Shown one piece after another: positions 1 to 8,709 of a stretch of 64,000 nucleotides of DNA. Made by a program: the position numbers and the translations under genes. The stretch spans positions 2,685,001 through 2,749,000 of the forward strand of contig NZ_CP005986.1 in assembly GCF_000175575.2 (NCBI RefSeq), read 5' to 3'. The notes under the pieces were generated by a model. The model was not told where the DNA came from. It saw only the letters and a list, made by a program, of their open reading frames with translations, and ran no database searches. Origin of the DNA: Acidithiobacillus caldus ATCC 51756. Its GTDB lineage: Bacteria; Pseudomonadota; Gammaproteobacteria; Acidithiobacillales; Acidithiobacillaceae. Within the stretch, counting starts at the first letter, position 1; every line of letters begins with the position of its first letter.

Positions 1-79
1 ACCTGCTGCCGTCCGACTTGCATGTGTTAGGCATGCCGCCAGCGTTCAATCTGAGCCAGGATCAAACTCTCGCGTTCAA
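1..79 (-). rRNA. rrs: 16S ribosomal RNA, 5' end only
   Basis: Read on the minus strand, the first 70 bases contain the universal bacterial 16S start: AGAGTTTGATCCTGGCTCAG, then the conserved ATTGAACGCTGGCGGCATGC stretch and ACATGCAAGTCG. Only about 80 bases of the gene are in the window; the rest lies beyond the left edge. The mature 5' end is placed near 79 by comparison with the E. coli gene, whose AGAGTTTG begins about 8 bases in. A strong promoter lies about 150 bases upstream. Confidence 0.95.
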
Positions 80-2247: not shown

Positions 2248-2332
2248 GGTCTACAACTAGCTTGAGGAGGGTGGCGCACTGTTGCTAGAAAAGGGTTTCT
2301 GGATCCGATTCGCAACGAATGAGGAGTGCGCC

Positions 2333-3595
2333 ATGCAAGAGAGTACTGGTTTCGACGGAGGAATGGGAGAGTTGGGCCTGAACATCGAGGGCTTATTGCG
2401 GCGGTCCGCGCGCCAGCTGATCCAACAGGCCATCGAGGGCGAGGTGCAGGTGCTGCTGGAGGAGTATGCCGCGGTACGCATGGTCGATGGTCGCCGGGCC
2501 GTCGTGCGGAATGGATATCTGCCGGAGCGGGAGATCCTGACAGCGGTCGGCCCCGTGCCTGTACAGGTCCCCAAGGTGCGAGACCGCTCCGGTTCGGGCG
2601 TGGTCTTCCGTTCTTCCCTGGTACCGCCCTACGTGCGCAAGTCGCGGACCGTGGCCGCAGCGCTCCCCTGGTTGTACCTGCACGGGGTATCGTCGGGACG
2701 GATGCACGAGGCGCTGTCTGTTCTCCTGGGCGAGGAGGCCAAGGGGCTTTCTCCGGCCGTGCTGGGACGCTTGAAAGTCGAATGGGCGCAAGAGCATGCC
2801 CAATGGCAGCGCCGGTCTCTACAGGGAAAACGCTACGCCTATTGGTGGGCCGACGGGGTCTATACCCAGCTGCGGGCGGAGGACGATCCCCGGATGTGTC
2901 TCTTGGTCATTATTGGCGTGACGGCCGAGGGCAAGAAGGAGGTCGTGGCGGTCACCGACGGTTTACGGGAGTCCAAAGCCTCCTGGCTAGAGATCCTGCG
3001 GGACTTGCGCGACCGCGGGCTGCAGGAGGCGCCACTACTGGCCATAGGAGATGGGGCGATGGGTTTCTGGGCCGCCCTGGACGAGATTTACCCACAAACC
3101 CGTCATCAGCGCTGTTGGGTGCACAAGACGGCCAACATCCTCAACGAGCTACCGAAGCGCCTTCAGGGGAAAGCCAAGGCCGCCCTGCAGGCGATCTGGA
3201 TGGCCGACACCCGTGAAGCTGCGGAGAAAGCCTGGCAAGCCTTCGTGCGGGACTACCAGGCCAAATATCCCAGAGCGGTCGCAAAGCTCGAGAAGGACCG
3301 GGACGTGCTGCTGACCTTCTTCGACTTCCCGGCAGAGCACTGGCGGCATATCCGCAGCAGCAACGCCATCGAATCGACCTTCGCCACCGTACGGCAACGC
3401 AGCAGCCGCACTAAAAACTGTGTCTCTCGAGCCACTTTCCTTGGCCTGAGCTACAAGCTCATCCAGCAGGCAGAGAGACACTGGCGCGGGATTCAGCATC
3501 CGGAAAGACTGCGCGAGCTCTTTGCCGGGGTGACATTTGTCGATGGGATGCCTGCCAACGAAACCCGGCTGGATCCTCAACAGGACGCCGCCTGA
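2333..3595 (+). CDS. IS256-family (Mutator-type) transposase
   Basis: A 420-residue DDE transposase that would catalyse copy-out/paste-in movement of the surrounding IS. The acidic triad is visible: D in WWADGVY, D in AIGDGAMGFW, and E in SSNAIESTFATVR. The family signature RCWVHKTANILNELPK follows the second aspartate. Full family length and no frame disruption. ATG 2333 is chosen because GAGGAG at 2321-2326 precedes it at normal spacing; the in-frame codons upstream have no such signal. Confidence 0.95.
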   Translation: MQESTGFDGGMGELGLNIEGLLRRSARQLIQQAIEGEVQVLLEEYAAVRMVDGRRAVVRNGYLPEREILTAVGPVPVQVPKVRDRSGSGVVFRSSLVPPYVRKSRTVAAALPWLYLHGVSSGRMHEALSVLLGEEAKGLSPAVLGRLKVEWAQEHAQWQRRSLQGKRYAYWWADGVYTQLRAEDDPRMCLLVIIGVTAEGKKEVVAVTDGLRESKASWLEILRDLRDRGLQEAPLLAIGDGAMGFWAALDEIYPQTRHQRCWVHKTANILNELPKRLQGKAKAALQAIWMADTREAAEKAWQAFVRDYQAKYPRAVAKLEKDRDVLLTFFDFPAEHWRHIRSSNAIESTFATVRQRSSRTKNCVSRATFLGLSYKLIQQAERHWRGIQHPERLRELFAGVTFVDGMPANETRLDPQQDAA

Positions 3596-3779: not shown

Positions 3780-5108
3780 ATGCACAGAATAAAACGCAAA
3801 GGCCACATCCAGAGCATACTCCCCGTAACGCTTGCCGCCCTTGCCTGGATGCCCCTGGCGCAGGCGGCGAACTGGTTTGCGCTGCAGGGCGTATCGCCAC
3901 CCACAGCGCCGCTCTTTGGCGTATCGGGATTCATCGAGCCAAGCCTTTACGCCCAGTCGGGCACTGAAGATGGCTTGTATCATCAAATACCGAACATCAA
4001 TCTGGTCGGCCCCAACTTCAGCCAGAGTACCACGGCGCAGATCCTGCGCGCGCGGATCATGCTGCGCGGCAATATCAATCACCATATCTCCTATTTCTTC
4101 GGTGGCGAATTCGGTAATAACGGCTTTACCAATATCCGCGGTAAATACCAGCCGGGCCTGATCGACGGTCATTTTACTTTCAGCTATATCCCCGGAGCCC
4201 GTGTCGAGGTCGGTCTGATCCGCGCGCCCAGCACCGAGGGGGCGATGCAGGGCTTCATGAGCTACAACTACGTCATCAGCCCGACCGTGGTCACCCAGCT
4301 GATGAATCAGACCATGTACGATTCGGGCAAGCCCTACAAGCCGGTCCCGACGCTGGGTGGAAATTATCTCGTGCCGGGAAGCGATACCTTGGGTATCAAT
4401 GGCTTTCGTTACCCCGGGGTGATGCTGTTCGACTGGTTCCGCCATGGTCCCTGGGAGTTTACCTACGGCGCCATGGTGGGCATGTACGGCAGCGTTGCTG
4501 CCGGCAATCAATCCAACAGTCCCATGGAGGCAGCACGGCTGCAGTTGGCCTACGTCCTCGGCGGGAAAGGGCCTTTCCGCAGCGACATTCAGGGCGGCAT
4601 CTGGTATCAACACGCCCAGCCGCTACTGGACGGGCAGAGCTACAACATGGATCGCTACGGTGTCGATCTGCAATACCTCCAGGGTTATATGCAGCCTTGG
4701 GGTCGACAGCTGCGCTTTGAGTACATCCGTGGTTCGGGCTGGATCGATGCGCCGGCGGCCTTCAGTAACGCTCCAGGTCTCGCGGCGCCACTGACGAACA
4801 CCCAGCTCTACCCCGGTCAGGAAAATCGGGCCTGGGGTTATATGGCGGAAGTGGGCCTATTCTTTAGCCACCACATCGAGGCCAACCTGCGCTACGACTA
4901 TTACAACCGGCTGCCCAACAATCCCGCACAGAACCGCATCTTCAAGACCTTTGCCATCGGCTTGCAATACCACTTTACGCCGTTGACCAAAGTCATGGCG
5001 GGTTACTATTTCCGTACCCTGAATGTGCCCCATCCCAACCCTGTCTCTGCCAGCGTTGCCAATGCCGTGGACAACGTCTTTGCCATGCAGGCCATGATCG
5101 CCTTTTAA
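3780..5108 (+). CDS. outer-membrane beta-barrel porin (phosphate-selective porin O/P type)
   Basis: A 442-residue exported protein with a typical signal peptide (cleavage after MPLAQA, near residue 29). The rest is rich in aromatic and glycine residues in alternating beta-strand patterns, and the chain ends in a terminal phenylalanine, as outer-membrane barrels do. ARIMLRGNINHHISYFFGGE and the later GVDLQYLQGYMQP / LRFEYIRGSGW stretches resemble OprO/OprP-family barrels. The substrate cannot be read from sequence. The gene is followed after 11 bases by an exported DsrE-like protein with which it shares the sigma-54-type promoter. That pairing hints at sulfur-compound handling, but this is inference. 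Confidence 0.8.
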   Translation: MHRIKRKGHIQSILPVTLAALAWMPLAQAANWFALQGVSPPTAPLFGVSGFIEPSLYAQSGTEDGLYHQIPNINLVGPNFSQSTTAQILRARIMLRGNINHHISYFFGGEFGNNGFTNIRGKYQPGLIDGHFTFSYIPGARVEVGLIRAPSTEGAMQGFMSYNYVISPTVVTQLMNQTMYDSGKPYKPVPTLGGNYLVPGSDTLGINGFRYPGVMLFDWFRHGPWEFTYGAMVGMYGSVAAGNQSNSPMEAARLQLAYVLGGKGPFRSDIQGGIWYQHAQPLLDGQSYNMDRYGVDLQYLQGYMQPWGRQLRFEYIRGSGWIDAPAAFSNAPGLAAPLTNTQLYPGQENRAWGYMAEVGLFFSHHIEANLRYDYYNRLPNNPAQNRIFKTFAIGLQYHFTPLTKVMAGYYFRTLNVPHPNPVSASVANAVDNVFAMQAMIAF

Positions 5109-5119
5109 GGAGAATGTCT

Positions 5120-5620
5120 ATGTCACCAGTCCGCTTGCCCCGTCTGTTCGCCGCACTGGCTCTGCCCCTTCTGCTGCTGGGTGCCGTGCCGTCCTGGGCC
5201 AACGTGTCCATGCTCAAGGATTTCGATTACGCCAAGCCCACATTTATCCACGATCATCCCTTTGCCATCGCCCACGTGGTGCTGCAGGTGAGCCAGGATA
5301 ACCCGGCCCGCTGGAACCTTACGCTCAACAACGCGCAGAACCTGCTGAATTACTTTGGTCAGGAAAAGGTGCAGATCGTGGTGGTGGCCTTTGGTCCTGG
5401 CATAAAGATGTACCTACCCAAAAACAAAGCCATCGCCGCTCGCATCGCGGCCATCAATGCCGAGGGGGTGGAGTTTGATGTGTGCCACAACAGCATGGAG
5501 GAATTCAAGAAAAAGACCGGACACTTGCCGCCCTTGGATCCCTCGGTGGTGATCGTACCCGCCGGAATCGTCCGTATCATGCAATTGGAGTCCCACGGTT
5601 TCAACTACGTAAAGCCCTAA
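5120..5620 (+). CDS. exported DsrE/DsrF-like protein
   Basis: A 166-residue protein with an N-terminal signal peptide (hydrophobic core LFAALALPLLLLG, cleavage near VPSWA). The mature part has a DsrE-like fold pattern: HVVLQVSQDN, VQIVVVAFGPGIKMYL and a conserved-type cysteine in EFDVCHNSM. DsrE-family cysteines carry sulfur in cytoplasmic sulfur relay, and periplasmic members are poorly characterised. ATG 5120 is chosen over ATG 5114 because AAGGAG (5107-5112) sits 7 bases before 5120 and only 1 base before 5114. It is second in the operon with the porin and is followed by a terminator. Confidence 0.8.
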   Translation: MSPVRLPRLFAALALPLLLLGAVPSWANVSMLKDFDYAKPTFIHDHPFAIAHVVLQVSQDNPARWNLTLNNAQNLLNYFGQEKVQIVVVAFGPGIKMYLPKNKAIAARIAAINAEGVEFDVCHNSMEEFKKKTGHLPPLDPSVVIVPAGIVRIMQLESHGFNYVKP

Positions 5621-5744: not shown

Positions 5745-6929
5745 TCAGGGCTTGATCTCGCGCCCTATGCCGTACTTGAGGCGACGCACCGGTAGATACC
5801 AGATGAGTCCATCCACCAGCATCAGCACGCCCGCGCCCATGAGCAGATATTCCGAGAAGCCGTAGGGGCTGACTCCAAGCATCTTATGGATGGCAATACC
5901 CAAGCCGATGAAGGCGACACCGGTGCGGATGAGGGACAGGCCGGTACGGGCGCGGGCGTAGGAGGTTCGGTGGCTGCTGGCGATGGTGCGCTGCGCTGCC
6001 AGCATGTTGCGCTCACGGGCAAGGTACGTCCGCTCCTTGCTGGCGGGCACGGGTGGGATGATGGAGCAGTACGGTGGAATGGTGGCCGCCAACCGGGCCA
6101 GATGCGTGTCGTCCTGTGCCTGGCAGGGTCTTTCGGCCAGATGGTAGCGCTCGGTGAAGCGGACGTTGGCGGCGGTGATCCGGATCAGCTCTTTCTGACA
6201 GGGGAGATCCATGCGCGACCCGCGCACCTGGAGATAGTCGAAAAGACCAATGGCTGCCAGCACGATACCCACCACGAGAATGGGCAGGTAGTAGGGCGAC
6301 AGGATGTTATCGCGCAGGTGCGTGAGCACATGGGCCAAGGCCACCATAGCCAAGCCCCAGCGCAAGAGCTTCATGGAAGTTCGCGCCCGGGCATGGGCGG
6401 TACGATGGGCCGCGAGCTTGGTCCGCCATAGGGCCATGGTATTGCGCCAGTAGGCGAGCCCAGTGCGCTCGATACCGATGAGCAGCGGTGCCGCAGCATG
6501 CAGATAGTCCTGAATATACCAATGGATATCCTCGCGCAGGGCAACCCGGAACTCGTAGTTCGCTGCCGACAGGGTCGTGCGCACCTGGGCGCGCATGGTG
6601 GGGCTGTCGGGTACGGCCGCTGCCACCACCACCGTATCGCCCAGCTGGCGCACCGGAAACCAGGCCTCGGCCCTGAGCATCTTGGGGTCGAGTCCAGCAA
6701 AGAGGCTCGTCGGTACCGGCAGACGCTCGTCGTACTGGACGAAGGGACAAGCGTAATGGCGGGAAAGGACCTCGAGCAGGGCACAGCGCGAGAGCCCAAA
6801 ATCCCGGAGCAGGACACGCTCCACCGGAATCTGGCGGCGGCTGGCACTTTCCTGGGCTGCCTGCCATTGCGCGGGACTGAGGTGGCCCGAGTCCACCAGG
6901 CCAGCATAGGGAGAGGGCTCAGGATTCAC
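5745..6929 (-). CDS. MshE/GspE N-terminal-type domain fused to two DUF202 membrane modules
   Basis: I do not recognise a named gene. Residues about 8-145 resemble the N-terminal domain of GspE/MshE ATPases (helical repeats such as LLRDFGLSRCALLEVLSRHY, then an alpha/beta part QLGDTVVVAAAVPDSP), but no ATPase follows. Instead there are two DUF202/YidH-type modules near 158-245 and 300-385. Each has an Arg-rich amphipathic segment (HARARTSMKLLRWG; YARARTGLSLIRTG) and two membrane helices. GTG 6929 is chosen because GGGAG precedes it and it overlaps the upstream gene's stop by 11 bases. Isolated MshE N-domains can bind cyclic di-GMP; the arginine/leucine/glycine motif looks degenerate here, so binding is only a possibility. 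Confidence 0.7.
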   Translation of the reverse strand: MNPEPSPYAGLVDSGHLSPAQWQAAQESASRRQIPVERVLLRDFGLSRCALLEVLSRHYACPFVQYDERLPVPTSLFAGLDPKMLRAEAWFPVRQLGDTVVVAAAVPDSPTMRAQVRTTLSAANYEFRVALREDIHWYIQDYLHAAAPLLIGIERTGLAYWRNTMALWRTKLAAHRTAHARARTSMKLLRWGLAMVALAHVLTHLRDNILSPYYLPILVVGIVLAAIGLFDYLQVRGSRMDLPCQKELIRITAANVRFTERYHLAERPCQAQDDTHLARLAATIPPYCSIIPPVPASKERTYLARERNMLAAQRTIASSHRTSYARARTGLSLIRTGVAFIGLGIAIHKMLGVSPYGFSEYLLMGAGVLMLVDGLIWYLPVRRLKYGIGREIKP

Positions 6930-8346
6930 GATGGTAGTGCTCCCGTGTCCACATGCTTTTGGGCAGGCTGTAGTCGGCATCGGCAATTTCGAAATGCGGC
7001 GCCACGAAGGGCGAACGCCGCTTGGCGCGTTCCGCCGGAAGGTACCAGAACAGGCCGTCCACGATCAGGTAGAGACCGACGAGCACGAGGCCAGCATCGA
7101 AAAGGGTCCACCAGAGATCTTCCTGCCGTGCGAAATGAAAATAGATGTAAAGACCTGCGCCCACGGTCATGAGGCTGAAGCCGGTGCGGATGAAGGCCAT
7201 TCCCGTGCGCGCACGCGCCATGACCGTGCGCAGGCGCGACATGGCATTGCGCTTGTCCGCCAGGGTGGTGCGCTCCAGGGCAAGGCCGGTGGTGGCATAG
7301 ACACCGGGCTGGGCCGCGACCCCGCTGGCCTCGGCGACGGGATCCACACCCTGTCGGTACAGGCAGGAGGAAGGGAAAATGCGATCCCACAGCCCCACGT
7401 GATCGCGCTTCTTGGCGACGACGGCGAGGGCATGATTGGCGGCGTGACGGCCCGGGTGATACCAGAGGAAGCCCTCGACGAGCATGACGATACCGATGCC
7501 AATGAGACTCCAGTCGAAGACCGACCAGGGCCCCGGCGGAAACTTCCGGACGAAGGCGATACCGATACCGGCAAAGGCGATCCCCGTGCGGGCGAAGGCC
7601 AGTCCAGTGCGGGCGCGGGCCATCATCACCCGCAGATACGCCAGGATGGTACGCTCCTCAGCGAGGTCCGTGCGGTCGTTGGCCAAAAAGCGGCGACGCT
7701 CTACCGGGGAAAGCGCATCCCAGTCTTCGCGCAGGGCCGTTGCCGTGGGCACCACGGGGCTGCGCCGAAAACGCCACCTGCCGTCAGCGGTGTCCACCTC
7801 CAGTGCGCTGTATTCGGGAGGGATGTCGTACGGCGGGTAATCCCGGATCTGTCGCGACTCACGCCGGGCTGGCCAGTACCAGAGAATGCCATCGATGATG
7901 GCAAGCACACCCAGCACCAGTAGCGGCAATTCGAAAAAGAGCAGGGTACCGCCACCAAAAAACCGGAGAAAGGCGACGGCGATACTGATGAAGGTCAGGC
8001 CAGTGCGCGCCAGGGCAAGTCCCGTCCGGCTCCGGGCAAAGCGCGTCCGTTGGGCGGCATAGCGGGTGCGCAGGGCGGCCAGGTAGGTGCGCACCCTGGC
8101 CAGAGGTGTGCGCCCACCGGAAACCGGGAAGTGTGCGTTGAGGTCGGCACTGTTCTCGATGAGGCGGACGAGATCTTCACGGGTGGCCACGCGAAAGCGC
8201 AGTTCCGAAACCCCGAGGACATTCCGGATGTGCTCCACCAAGGCGGGATTCTCGGGGTCACAAACGATGACCTCGGCGCGGTCTTTATCCCAGGAGATGG
8301 GTAACCAGAGTTCGCGGCGCAGAACGTCCACGCCGAGCCTGCGCAA
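6919..8346 (-). CDS. partial MshE/GspE N-type domain fused to three DUF202 membrane modules
   Basis: Upstream partner of the preceding gene, same strand, with ends overlapping by 11 bases. After a short alpha/beta segment (DRAEVIVCDPENPALVEHI) come three DUF202-type modules near residues 75-160, 215-300 and 350-440. Each repeats the pattern FARSRTGLALARTGLTF, MARARTGLAFARTGIAF or MARARTGMAFIRTGFSL, followed by two membrane helices and a WYxP ending. The start is doubtful. The TTG at 8346 has no clear ribosome site. In-frame similarity to the partner gene continues upstream to about 8420 (QARYTWPTVEYEEGL resembles SRHYACPFVQYDERL), but there is no ATG or GTG in that stretch. A one-base indel in the T6 run at 8454-8459 would join it to a GTG at 8464. 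Confidence 0.65.
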   Translation of the reverse strand: MRRLGVDVLRRELWLPISWDKDRAEVIVCDPENPALVEHIRNVLGVSELRFRVATREDLVRLIENSADLNAHFPVSGGRTPLARVRTYLAALRTRYAAQRTRFARSRTGLALARTGLTFISIAVAFLRFFGGGTLLFFELPLLVLGVLAIIDGILWYWPARRESRQIRDYPPYDIPPEYSALEVDTADGRWRFRRSPVVPTATALREDWDALSPVERRRFLANDRTDLAEERTILAYLRVMMARARTGLAFARTGIAFAGIGIAFVRKFPPGPWSVFDWSLIGIGIVMLVEGFLWYHPGRHAANHALAVVAKKRDHVGLWDRIFPSSCLYRQGVDPVAEASGVAAQPGVYATTGLALERTTLADKRNAMSRLRTVMARARTGMAFIRTGFSLMTVGAGLYIYFHFARQEDLWWTLFDAGLVLVGLYLIVDGLFWYLPAERAKRRSPFVAPHFEIADADYSLPKSMWTREHYHRES

Positions 8347-8709
8347 GGTGGAGGATGCGGCGGTCAGTCCTTCTTCGTATTCTACCGTCGGCCAAGTATA
8401 GCGGGCCTGCAGTTCTTGAAGTCGTTCGTCCTTGGCTAAGGTTTGTGCGCTTATTTTTTGTCACCCCAACACATCACTGGCAGCGGGGCCGGCATCTCGC
8501 CCAGGCTCCGAGCGCGGCACGATGCCTTGCGCGCCCCGAAGCGTCCGTCCGCCCTGGAAAATCCCGCCATTGTACGCAACTCGGCGGGTTTCTTACTACC
8601 CCCTACCACGGTCCGAAGCGCGAGGCCGGTACCCTGCCGCCGCGGCGTTTGGAAATGCCGGGCCGGCGGCGCCAAAGGCGCCGCGCCACTGGCGTCGGGT
8701 CGATCCGCG
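8347..8709. other. 363-base intergenic region with a GC-rich hairpin
   Basis: Between marC and the DUF202 pair, all on the minus strand. Bases 8347-8420 probably code for the lost N-terminus of the downstream gene. Bases 8666-8684 form a perfect hairpin, GCGGCGCC-AAA-GGCGCCGC, about 25 bases after the marC stop. No T run follows on the minus strand, so it is an imperfect terminator at best. I see no further gene or clear promoter. Confidence 0.55.

Follow-up and report, generated by a model that had tools for sequence, protein, structure and literature searches.

What is made by two adjacent, overlapping genes that join heads resembling the N-terminal domain of MshE (MshEN) to a series of DUF202 membrane modules is the question raised by the locus described here. 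DUF202 proteins are widespread, and their function in bacteria is unsettled. The pair lies in a stretch of 64,000 nucleotides (hereafter the window) from Acidithiobacillus caldus ATCC 51756, a genome of 2.99 Mb, and its features are collected in Table 1. The original prediction, made from the letters of the window, had described it as a two-gene unit of an architecture for which no described system was known. Our literature search gave no paper naming both MshEN and DUF202, and the architecture holds up on inspection, is conserved, and has no description in the literature searched. New in this work are a heptad ladder of arginines, an invariant count of three plus two modules, the absence of the c-di-GMP motif from the heads, and an AUA, AUU, or AUC (AUH) start codon in 17 of 19 genomes.

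Table 1. Features of the gene pair, in positions of the window.
Feature	Position	Strand	Evidence and remarks
Upstream gene, truncated MshEN-like head and three DUF202 modules	6919-8454	-	511 aa, start AUA; frame and start analysis, Pfam
Shine-Dalgarno-like GGGGTGA overlapping the in-frame TGA	8461-8467	-	GGGGT/GGAG/GAGG in its place in 15 other genomes, 7 nt upstream of AUH
Proposed AUA start codon	8452-8454	-	ATG/GTG/TTG absent from in-frame stop to VEY; AUH in 17/19 genomes
MshEN C-terminal subdomain of the upstream protein	8149-8397	-	Pfam E 6.9e-12; AF2 beta-alpha fold; Foldseek
DUF202 module A, six-rung Arg ladder	7855-8121	-
DUF202 module B, six-rung Arg ladder	7432-7710	-	Including Pfam
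DUF202 module C, five-rung Arg ladder	7015-7305	-
Overlap of the two genes, 11 bp	6919-6929	-	Stop TGA 6919-6921, GTG 6927-6929
Downstream gene, complete MshEN-like head and two DUF202 modules	5745-6929	-	394 aa, start GTG
Complete MshEN fold of the downstream protein, without c-di-GMP motif	6495-6929	-	Pfam, AF2, Foldseek, motif test
DUF202 module D, six-rung Arg ladder	6210-6491	-
DUF202 module E, six-rung Arg ladder	5766-6056	-

Both open reading frames are present on the minus strand, and the GTG at 6929 gives the overlap of 11 bp that had been claimed for them. From the predicted span of 5745-8420 the first end was retained, whereas the second had to be moved: the frame of the upstream gene is open from the TGA at 8461-8463 and its best start is the AUA, which places the end of the gene at 8454 and not at 8420. 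For the downstream gene the start is ATG or GTG in 12 of 12 aligned orthologs, and the gene caller often picked its antisense frame. At the gene pair no regulatory RNA was found with Rfam, a sigma-70 promoter scan gave no match, and neither did a plasmid search.

The heads of both proteins match MshEN above the Pfam cut-off (E 2.5e-10 for the downstream and 6.9e-12 for the upstream protein), and NCBIfam gives a match of the head to TIGR02538 (E 8e-6). The AF2 models of the two proteins, built from 12-sequence alignments, reached mean pLDDT values of 72 and 67 and are to be read with modest confidence. In the downstream protein the head is modeled as an MshEN fold with pLDDT mostly 84-91, and the best Foldseek matches of this protein in the PDB were MshE with c-di-GMP (5htl, E 3.2e-4), PilF GSPII, and the PilB N-domains. 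The upstream head is modeled as the second half of the MshEN fold followed by three hairpins, and its comparison with the N-domains of PilF, MshE, and XpsE gave a probability of 1.0 with E values of only 0.03-0.1. Structure prediction therefore recovers the MshEN-like fold that had been proposed for the N-termini, with the reservation that the upstream protein of this genome holds only the C-terminal half of the domain. A relative (L041) keeps the full head in its upstream protein, so that the half-domain is probably the result of a later loss. As had also been predicted, no ATPase follows, and neither protein has a match to such a domain in Pfam or NCBIfam.

The rest of the two proteins agrees with the five DUF202 modules, two plus three, read from the window at the outset. 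With the Pfam model (PF02656) the upstream protein scores 51.5 bits (E 1.4e-13) and the downstream protein 20.9 bits (E 5e-4), just under the gathering cut-off of 23.4, and 21 out of 25 single modules (five modules from each of five genomes) match DUF202 at E <= 0.01. The RT-x-x-A-x-x-RT stretch that enters the membrane helices is present in the modules, and the WYxP ending that had been attributed to every one of them was seen in four, the first module of the downstream protein ending in DYL instead. Each module is modeled as a helix of 50-57 residues (56-57 for the long helices of the downstream protein) and then a second, shorter membrane helix.

Within the modules, arginines are spaced exactly seven residues apart, with 6-6-5 rungs in the upstream protein and 6-6 in the downstream one, and the count of such arginines exceeds that of within-module shuffles in each module (p <= 0.0013, 10,000 trials). 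The arrangement of 3+2 modules with ladders of 6-6-5 and 6-6 is the same in the 22 genomes read, the exception being L041, with one downstream module of five rungs, and among the neighboring ORFs of those 22 genomes only one other had an Arg chain, and that a single one. The ladder arginines are invariant or nearly so across 12 orthologs; R11, R18, R25, and R32 are invariant in the 25 modules, and position 1 of the Pfam DUF202 model falls on rung R25. Since it beats the shuffles and is kept across species, the heptad ladder is not a product of chance. The modules are also specific to their position, module A being 71-84% identical to module A of other genomes and 32-47% identical to the other modules, as expected if each occupied a fixed place in a ring, and the fixed total of five suggests a ring as well.

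A system with modules of the same type is the VTC complex of yeast (Vtc1/Vtc3/Vtc4; 7ytj, 8i6v, 9umg), a 3:1:1 pentamer in which five TM1 helices line a channel and K24 and R31 of Vtc1 are polyphosphate-channel residues (PMC9911596). VTC has five modules per complex and the pair encodes five (3+2) in all genomes checked, a number read here from the genes, and in both systems basic residues are found seven apart on the first membrane helix. K24 and R31 of Vtc1 fall at corresponding places of the ladder, as judged by motif match, the YidH alignment, and the Pfam position, Vtc1 itself being outside the alignment. The two systems also differ in several respects, as the pair has neither the TTM polymerase nor the SPX domain of VTC, its modules apparently have two membrane helices whereas VTC subunits have three, and they are fused 3+2 with about three more arginine rungs. 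VTC was not among the best 50 Foldseek matches of either protein, and the module profile found zero PDB chains at E <= 10 in a searched set that included VTC chains. The relationship between DUF202 and VTC, to which the original prediction had pointed, stands as a lead.

A bacterial counterpart is seen in YidH-YidG of Escherichia coli, two adjacent DUF202-type genes which also overlap by 11 bp (L080:609-1308) but have one module per protein, no MshEN head, a short ladder, and normal starts. The R-x6-R-x6-R of YidH (R13, R20, and R27) aligns with the last three rungs of the ladder. YidH, the closest bacterial relative that has been studied, passed a screen for D-alanine export but failed in the transport assay (PMC10299036). 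The A. caldus genome itself contains a DUF202 protein of 108 aa (L002:1435-1761) with a four-rung ladder, RDWLALDRTVLANERTFLAYTRT, and apparently two membrane helices, like the modules of the pair, although it consists of a single module and has no head; its gene directly precedes one resembling a molybdopterin oxidoreductase. Another protein of the same genome (L001:1195-1848, 217 aa) apparently carries two DUF202 units in tandem.

The survey of the fusion across genomes located the pair in 16 of 29 Acidithiobacillaceae genomes including this one (two of the copies being fragmentary), in five of five genomes of a second family, in the two genomes of a third order, and in none of the remaining genomes among 369 of the class and 399 of the phylum (Pseudomonadota). 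It is thus confined to the Acidithiobacillaceae and two small gammaproteobacterial groups, the named hosts being Acidithiobacillus, Ca. Igneacidithiobacillus, Bacterium BMS3Bbin13, and UBA3588. In G025:C12 (L021) and G017:C85 (L022, L031) the contigs that carry the pair are fragmentary or masked in part, and in L021 the head of the upstream protein lies outside the same open frame. Within the Acidithiobacillaceae the neighbors are conserved, with marC and aspS on one side and dsrE and a porin-like gene on the other; in the window the porin-like gene and then the DsrE-family gene occupy 3780-5620 (+) and adjoin the pair, a placement conserved in the Acidithiobacillaceae. No neighbor conserved between families was found, those of the two other groups being different, and the surroundings therefore give no functional lead. 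Since neighbors differ between families, the pair would be expected to act alone or with unlinked partners. As regards the possible link to polyphosphate or acid tolerance raised in the original prediction, the polymerase domain of VTC (TTM, PF09359) is absent from the 29 Acidithiobacillaceae genomes, and ppk is present in 20 of 20 genomes tested, whether or not they carry the pair. Being universal, ppk is uninformative as a co-occurring gene, and its presence in genomes without the pair indicates that the pair is not needed for polyphosphate.

The reading we prefer, and put forward only tentatively, is that of a concatenated five-module conduit for anions or polyanions, one whose heads serve in docking and whose translation is rationed. 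The two proteins would come together in the inner membrane as one complex, and their 3+2 covalently linked modules would close into a single five-fold ring like the VTC pore; given five modules and a common register, a single VTC-like ring could be made up of one copy of each protein. Each module would provide one long helix of approximately 50-57 residues above a two-helix membrane part, with the heptad arginines (29 in total) facing the lumen as stacked rings, and this would generate a long, positively charged passage for anionic or polyanionic substrates, of which phosphate or the polyphosphate made by PPK is the most plausible. The MshEN-like heads would be located at the cytoplasmic mouth, serving in docking or assembly and not in c-di-GMP sensing, and a start codon of the class repressed by IF3 would keep the output of the upstream gene low, the overlapping downstream gene starting normally. 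Ring assembly, pore, substrate, head function, and IF3 control are each of them steps that we infer, and the most specific version, a pre-linked 3+2 polyanion pore of the VTC kind with up to six arginine rings, heads independent of c-di-GMP, and a low copy number under IF3 control, must be considered doubtful. Genes pointing to phosphate were found at none of the neighborhoods annotated.

Two other functions are serious rivals to this conduit. The same ring might act in pH or charge homeostasis as an anion-selective leak (chloride, sulfate) that sets an inside-positive potential and is unrelated to polyphosphate, a rather unlikely role by our estimate. Most of the named hosts are acidophiles that oxidize sulfur (Acidithiobacillus, Igneacidithiobacillus), a lumen lined with arginine would favor anions, no polyphosphate-specific neighbor was found, and some ppk-positive relatives are devoid of the pair. 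However, about a dozen Acidithiobacillaceae genomes do without it, it also occurs in Bacterium BMS3Bbin13, and a constitutively open leak would be harmful, although low expression could account for that. The second possibility is a scaffold and no pore at all, with the ladder helices forming a cytoplasmic coiled-coil stalk that binds the head groups of lipids or acidic partners, and with the MshEN-like heads recruiting a component of a type II secretion system or type IV pilus in the manner of the XpsE and PilB N-domains. The long helices extend far beyond the membrane in the AF2 models, the head resembles the PilB, XpsE, and MshE N-domains by the TIGR02538 and Foldseek matches given above, and the genome codes for one other MshEN protein, whose ORF of 619 aa has the size of an ATPase. 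The register of the ladder coincides nevertheless with the polyphosphate-channel residues of Vtc1, and pilus genes are unlinked to the pair in every neighborhood annotated. We regard the stalk, too, as rather unlikely.

The proposed rationing of translation concerns the point at which the upstream gene begins. Between the in-frame stop and a conserved VEY motif no ATG, GTG, or TTG is available, and an AUA, AUU, or AUC after a Shine-Dalgarno sequence was found in genomes of two families (13 Acidithiobacillaceae and four of the second family). The distance from GGAG, GAGG, or GGGG to the AUH codon is 7 nt in 15 of these 17 genomes and 9 nt in two, this genome being one of them. A canonical start before the conserved domain is absent in eight of the 17, and one (L062) has an ATG two codons upstream of its AUA, just one base past the Shine-Dalgarno. 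ATG serves as the start in two genomes of these families (L015 and L049) and also in relatives whose heads are longer. The corresponding site of L041 is an internal Ile codon after GGAGGA, from which the present start may derive, having been taken over once the front of the head had disappeared.

That the gene starts instead at an internal TTG (8346 here), with the preceding segment being untranslated relic DNA, is very unlikely. This TTG is the mechanical start of the ORF, and over the first 13 codons after AUH the substitutions by codon position (89/103/136) are only mildly enriched at the third; against it, a conserved PTVEYEEGL lies upstream of the TTG, the MshEN match also begins before it, the third-position bias is strong from VEY onward (169/118/393), 15 genomes from two families have a Shine-Dalgarno at a distance of 7 nt from AUH, and the TTG is not kept at that place in relatives. 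An origin of the upstream N-terminus by frameshift or read-through from the preceding gene was rejected, since several genomes have an in-frame stop three to five codons before AUH; in this genome the preceding gene also ends about 250 bp off.

Starts of the AUA/AUU/AUC class are repressed by IF3 (PMC5472188), and a low, IF3-sensitive output would thus be the natural reading for the upstream gene. The class is shared with infC (AUU/AUC) and Streptomyces sigR (GTC), from which the pair differs in being a membrane complex without a known link to translation, and in sigR-rsrA the outputs of the upstream and downstream genes are unequal (PMC5472188). The infC gene of the present genome (G000:C1:2455303, L081) has no ATG, GTG, or TTG at its 5' end either, and its likely start is an AUC after GGAGGGTAGGACT.

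The heads, for which a docking role is proposed above, share their N-domain fold with the c-di-GMP receptors MshE, NfrB, and PilF-GSPII (5htl, 8pdk), but the ligand motif is lost and DUF202 modules take the place of the ATPase or glycosyltransferase. The published relaxed motif of these receptors has 24 residues, RLGxx(L/V/I)(L/V/I)xxG..., in two copies (PMC5013675). None of the 24 proteins of the pair (12 upstream and 12 downstream) contains it, and the same test detects it twice in the E. coli NfrB control; in the window protein SPY and PVE stand in the places of RLG, with the key R, L, and G positions replaced. The motif was likewise absent from the MshEN ATPases taken as controls (L023, L050, L061, L082-L084), which makes these controls uninformative. 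A membrane complex gated by c-di-GMP, as the original prediction had imagined on the basis of such sensing, is consequently extremely unlikely. The MshEN fold is there and c-di-GMP signaling exists in Acidithiobacillus (PMC5852609), but on top of the missing motif and the SPY and PVE replacements, mutation of the glycine of the MshE RLG abolishes binding (PMC5013675) and the upstream protein here is without the entire motif-bearing half. Given the absence of the motif, the heads would more likely be docking or assembly domains.

A natural 3+2 concatemer with an exaggerated ladder is an object of defined stoichiometry in which the idea of a five-fold pore could be tested directly in bacteria. 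The conserved AUH start, if true, would place a membrane complex among the very few genes with IF3-dependent start codons (infC, sigR), and genes starting with AUH represent a class that is cut short by standard annotation. In biomining bacteria polyphosphate has been linked to copper resistance, and an anion conduit in such organisms, if true, would be of practical interest.

Two further elements were seen in the same window, namely an ORF at 2282-3595 (+) which resembles, by eye, a transposase of the Mutator/IS256 type, and the 5' end of a 16S rRNA gene at 1-77 (-), detected with Rfam.
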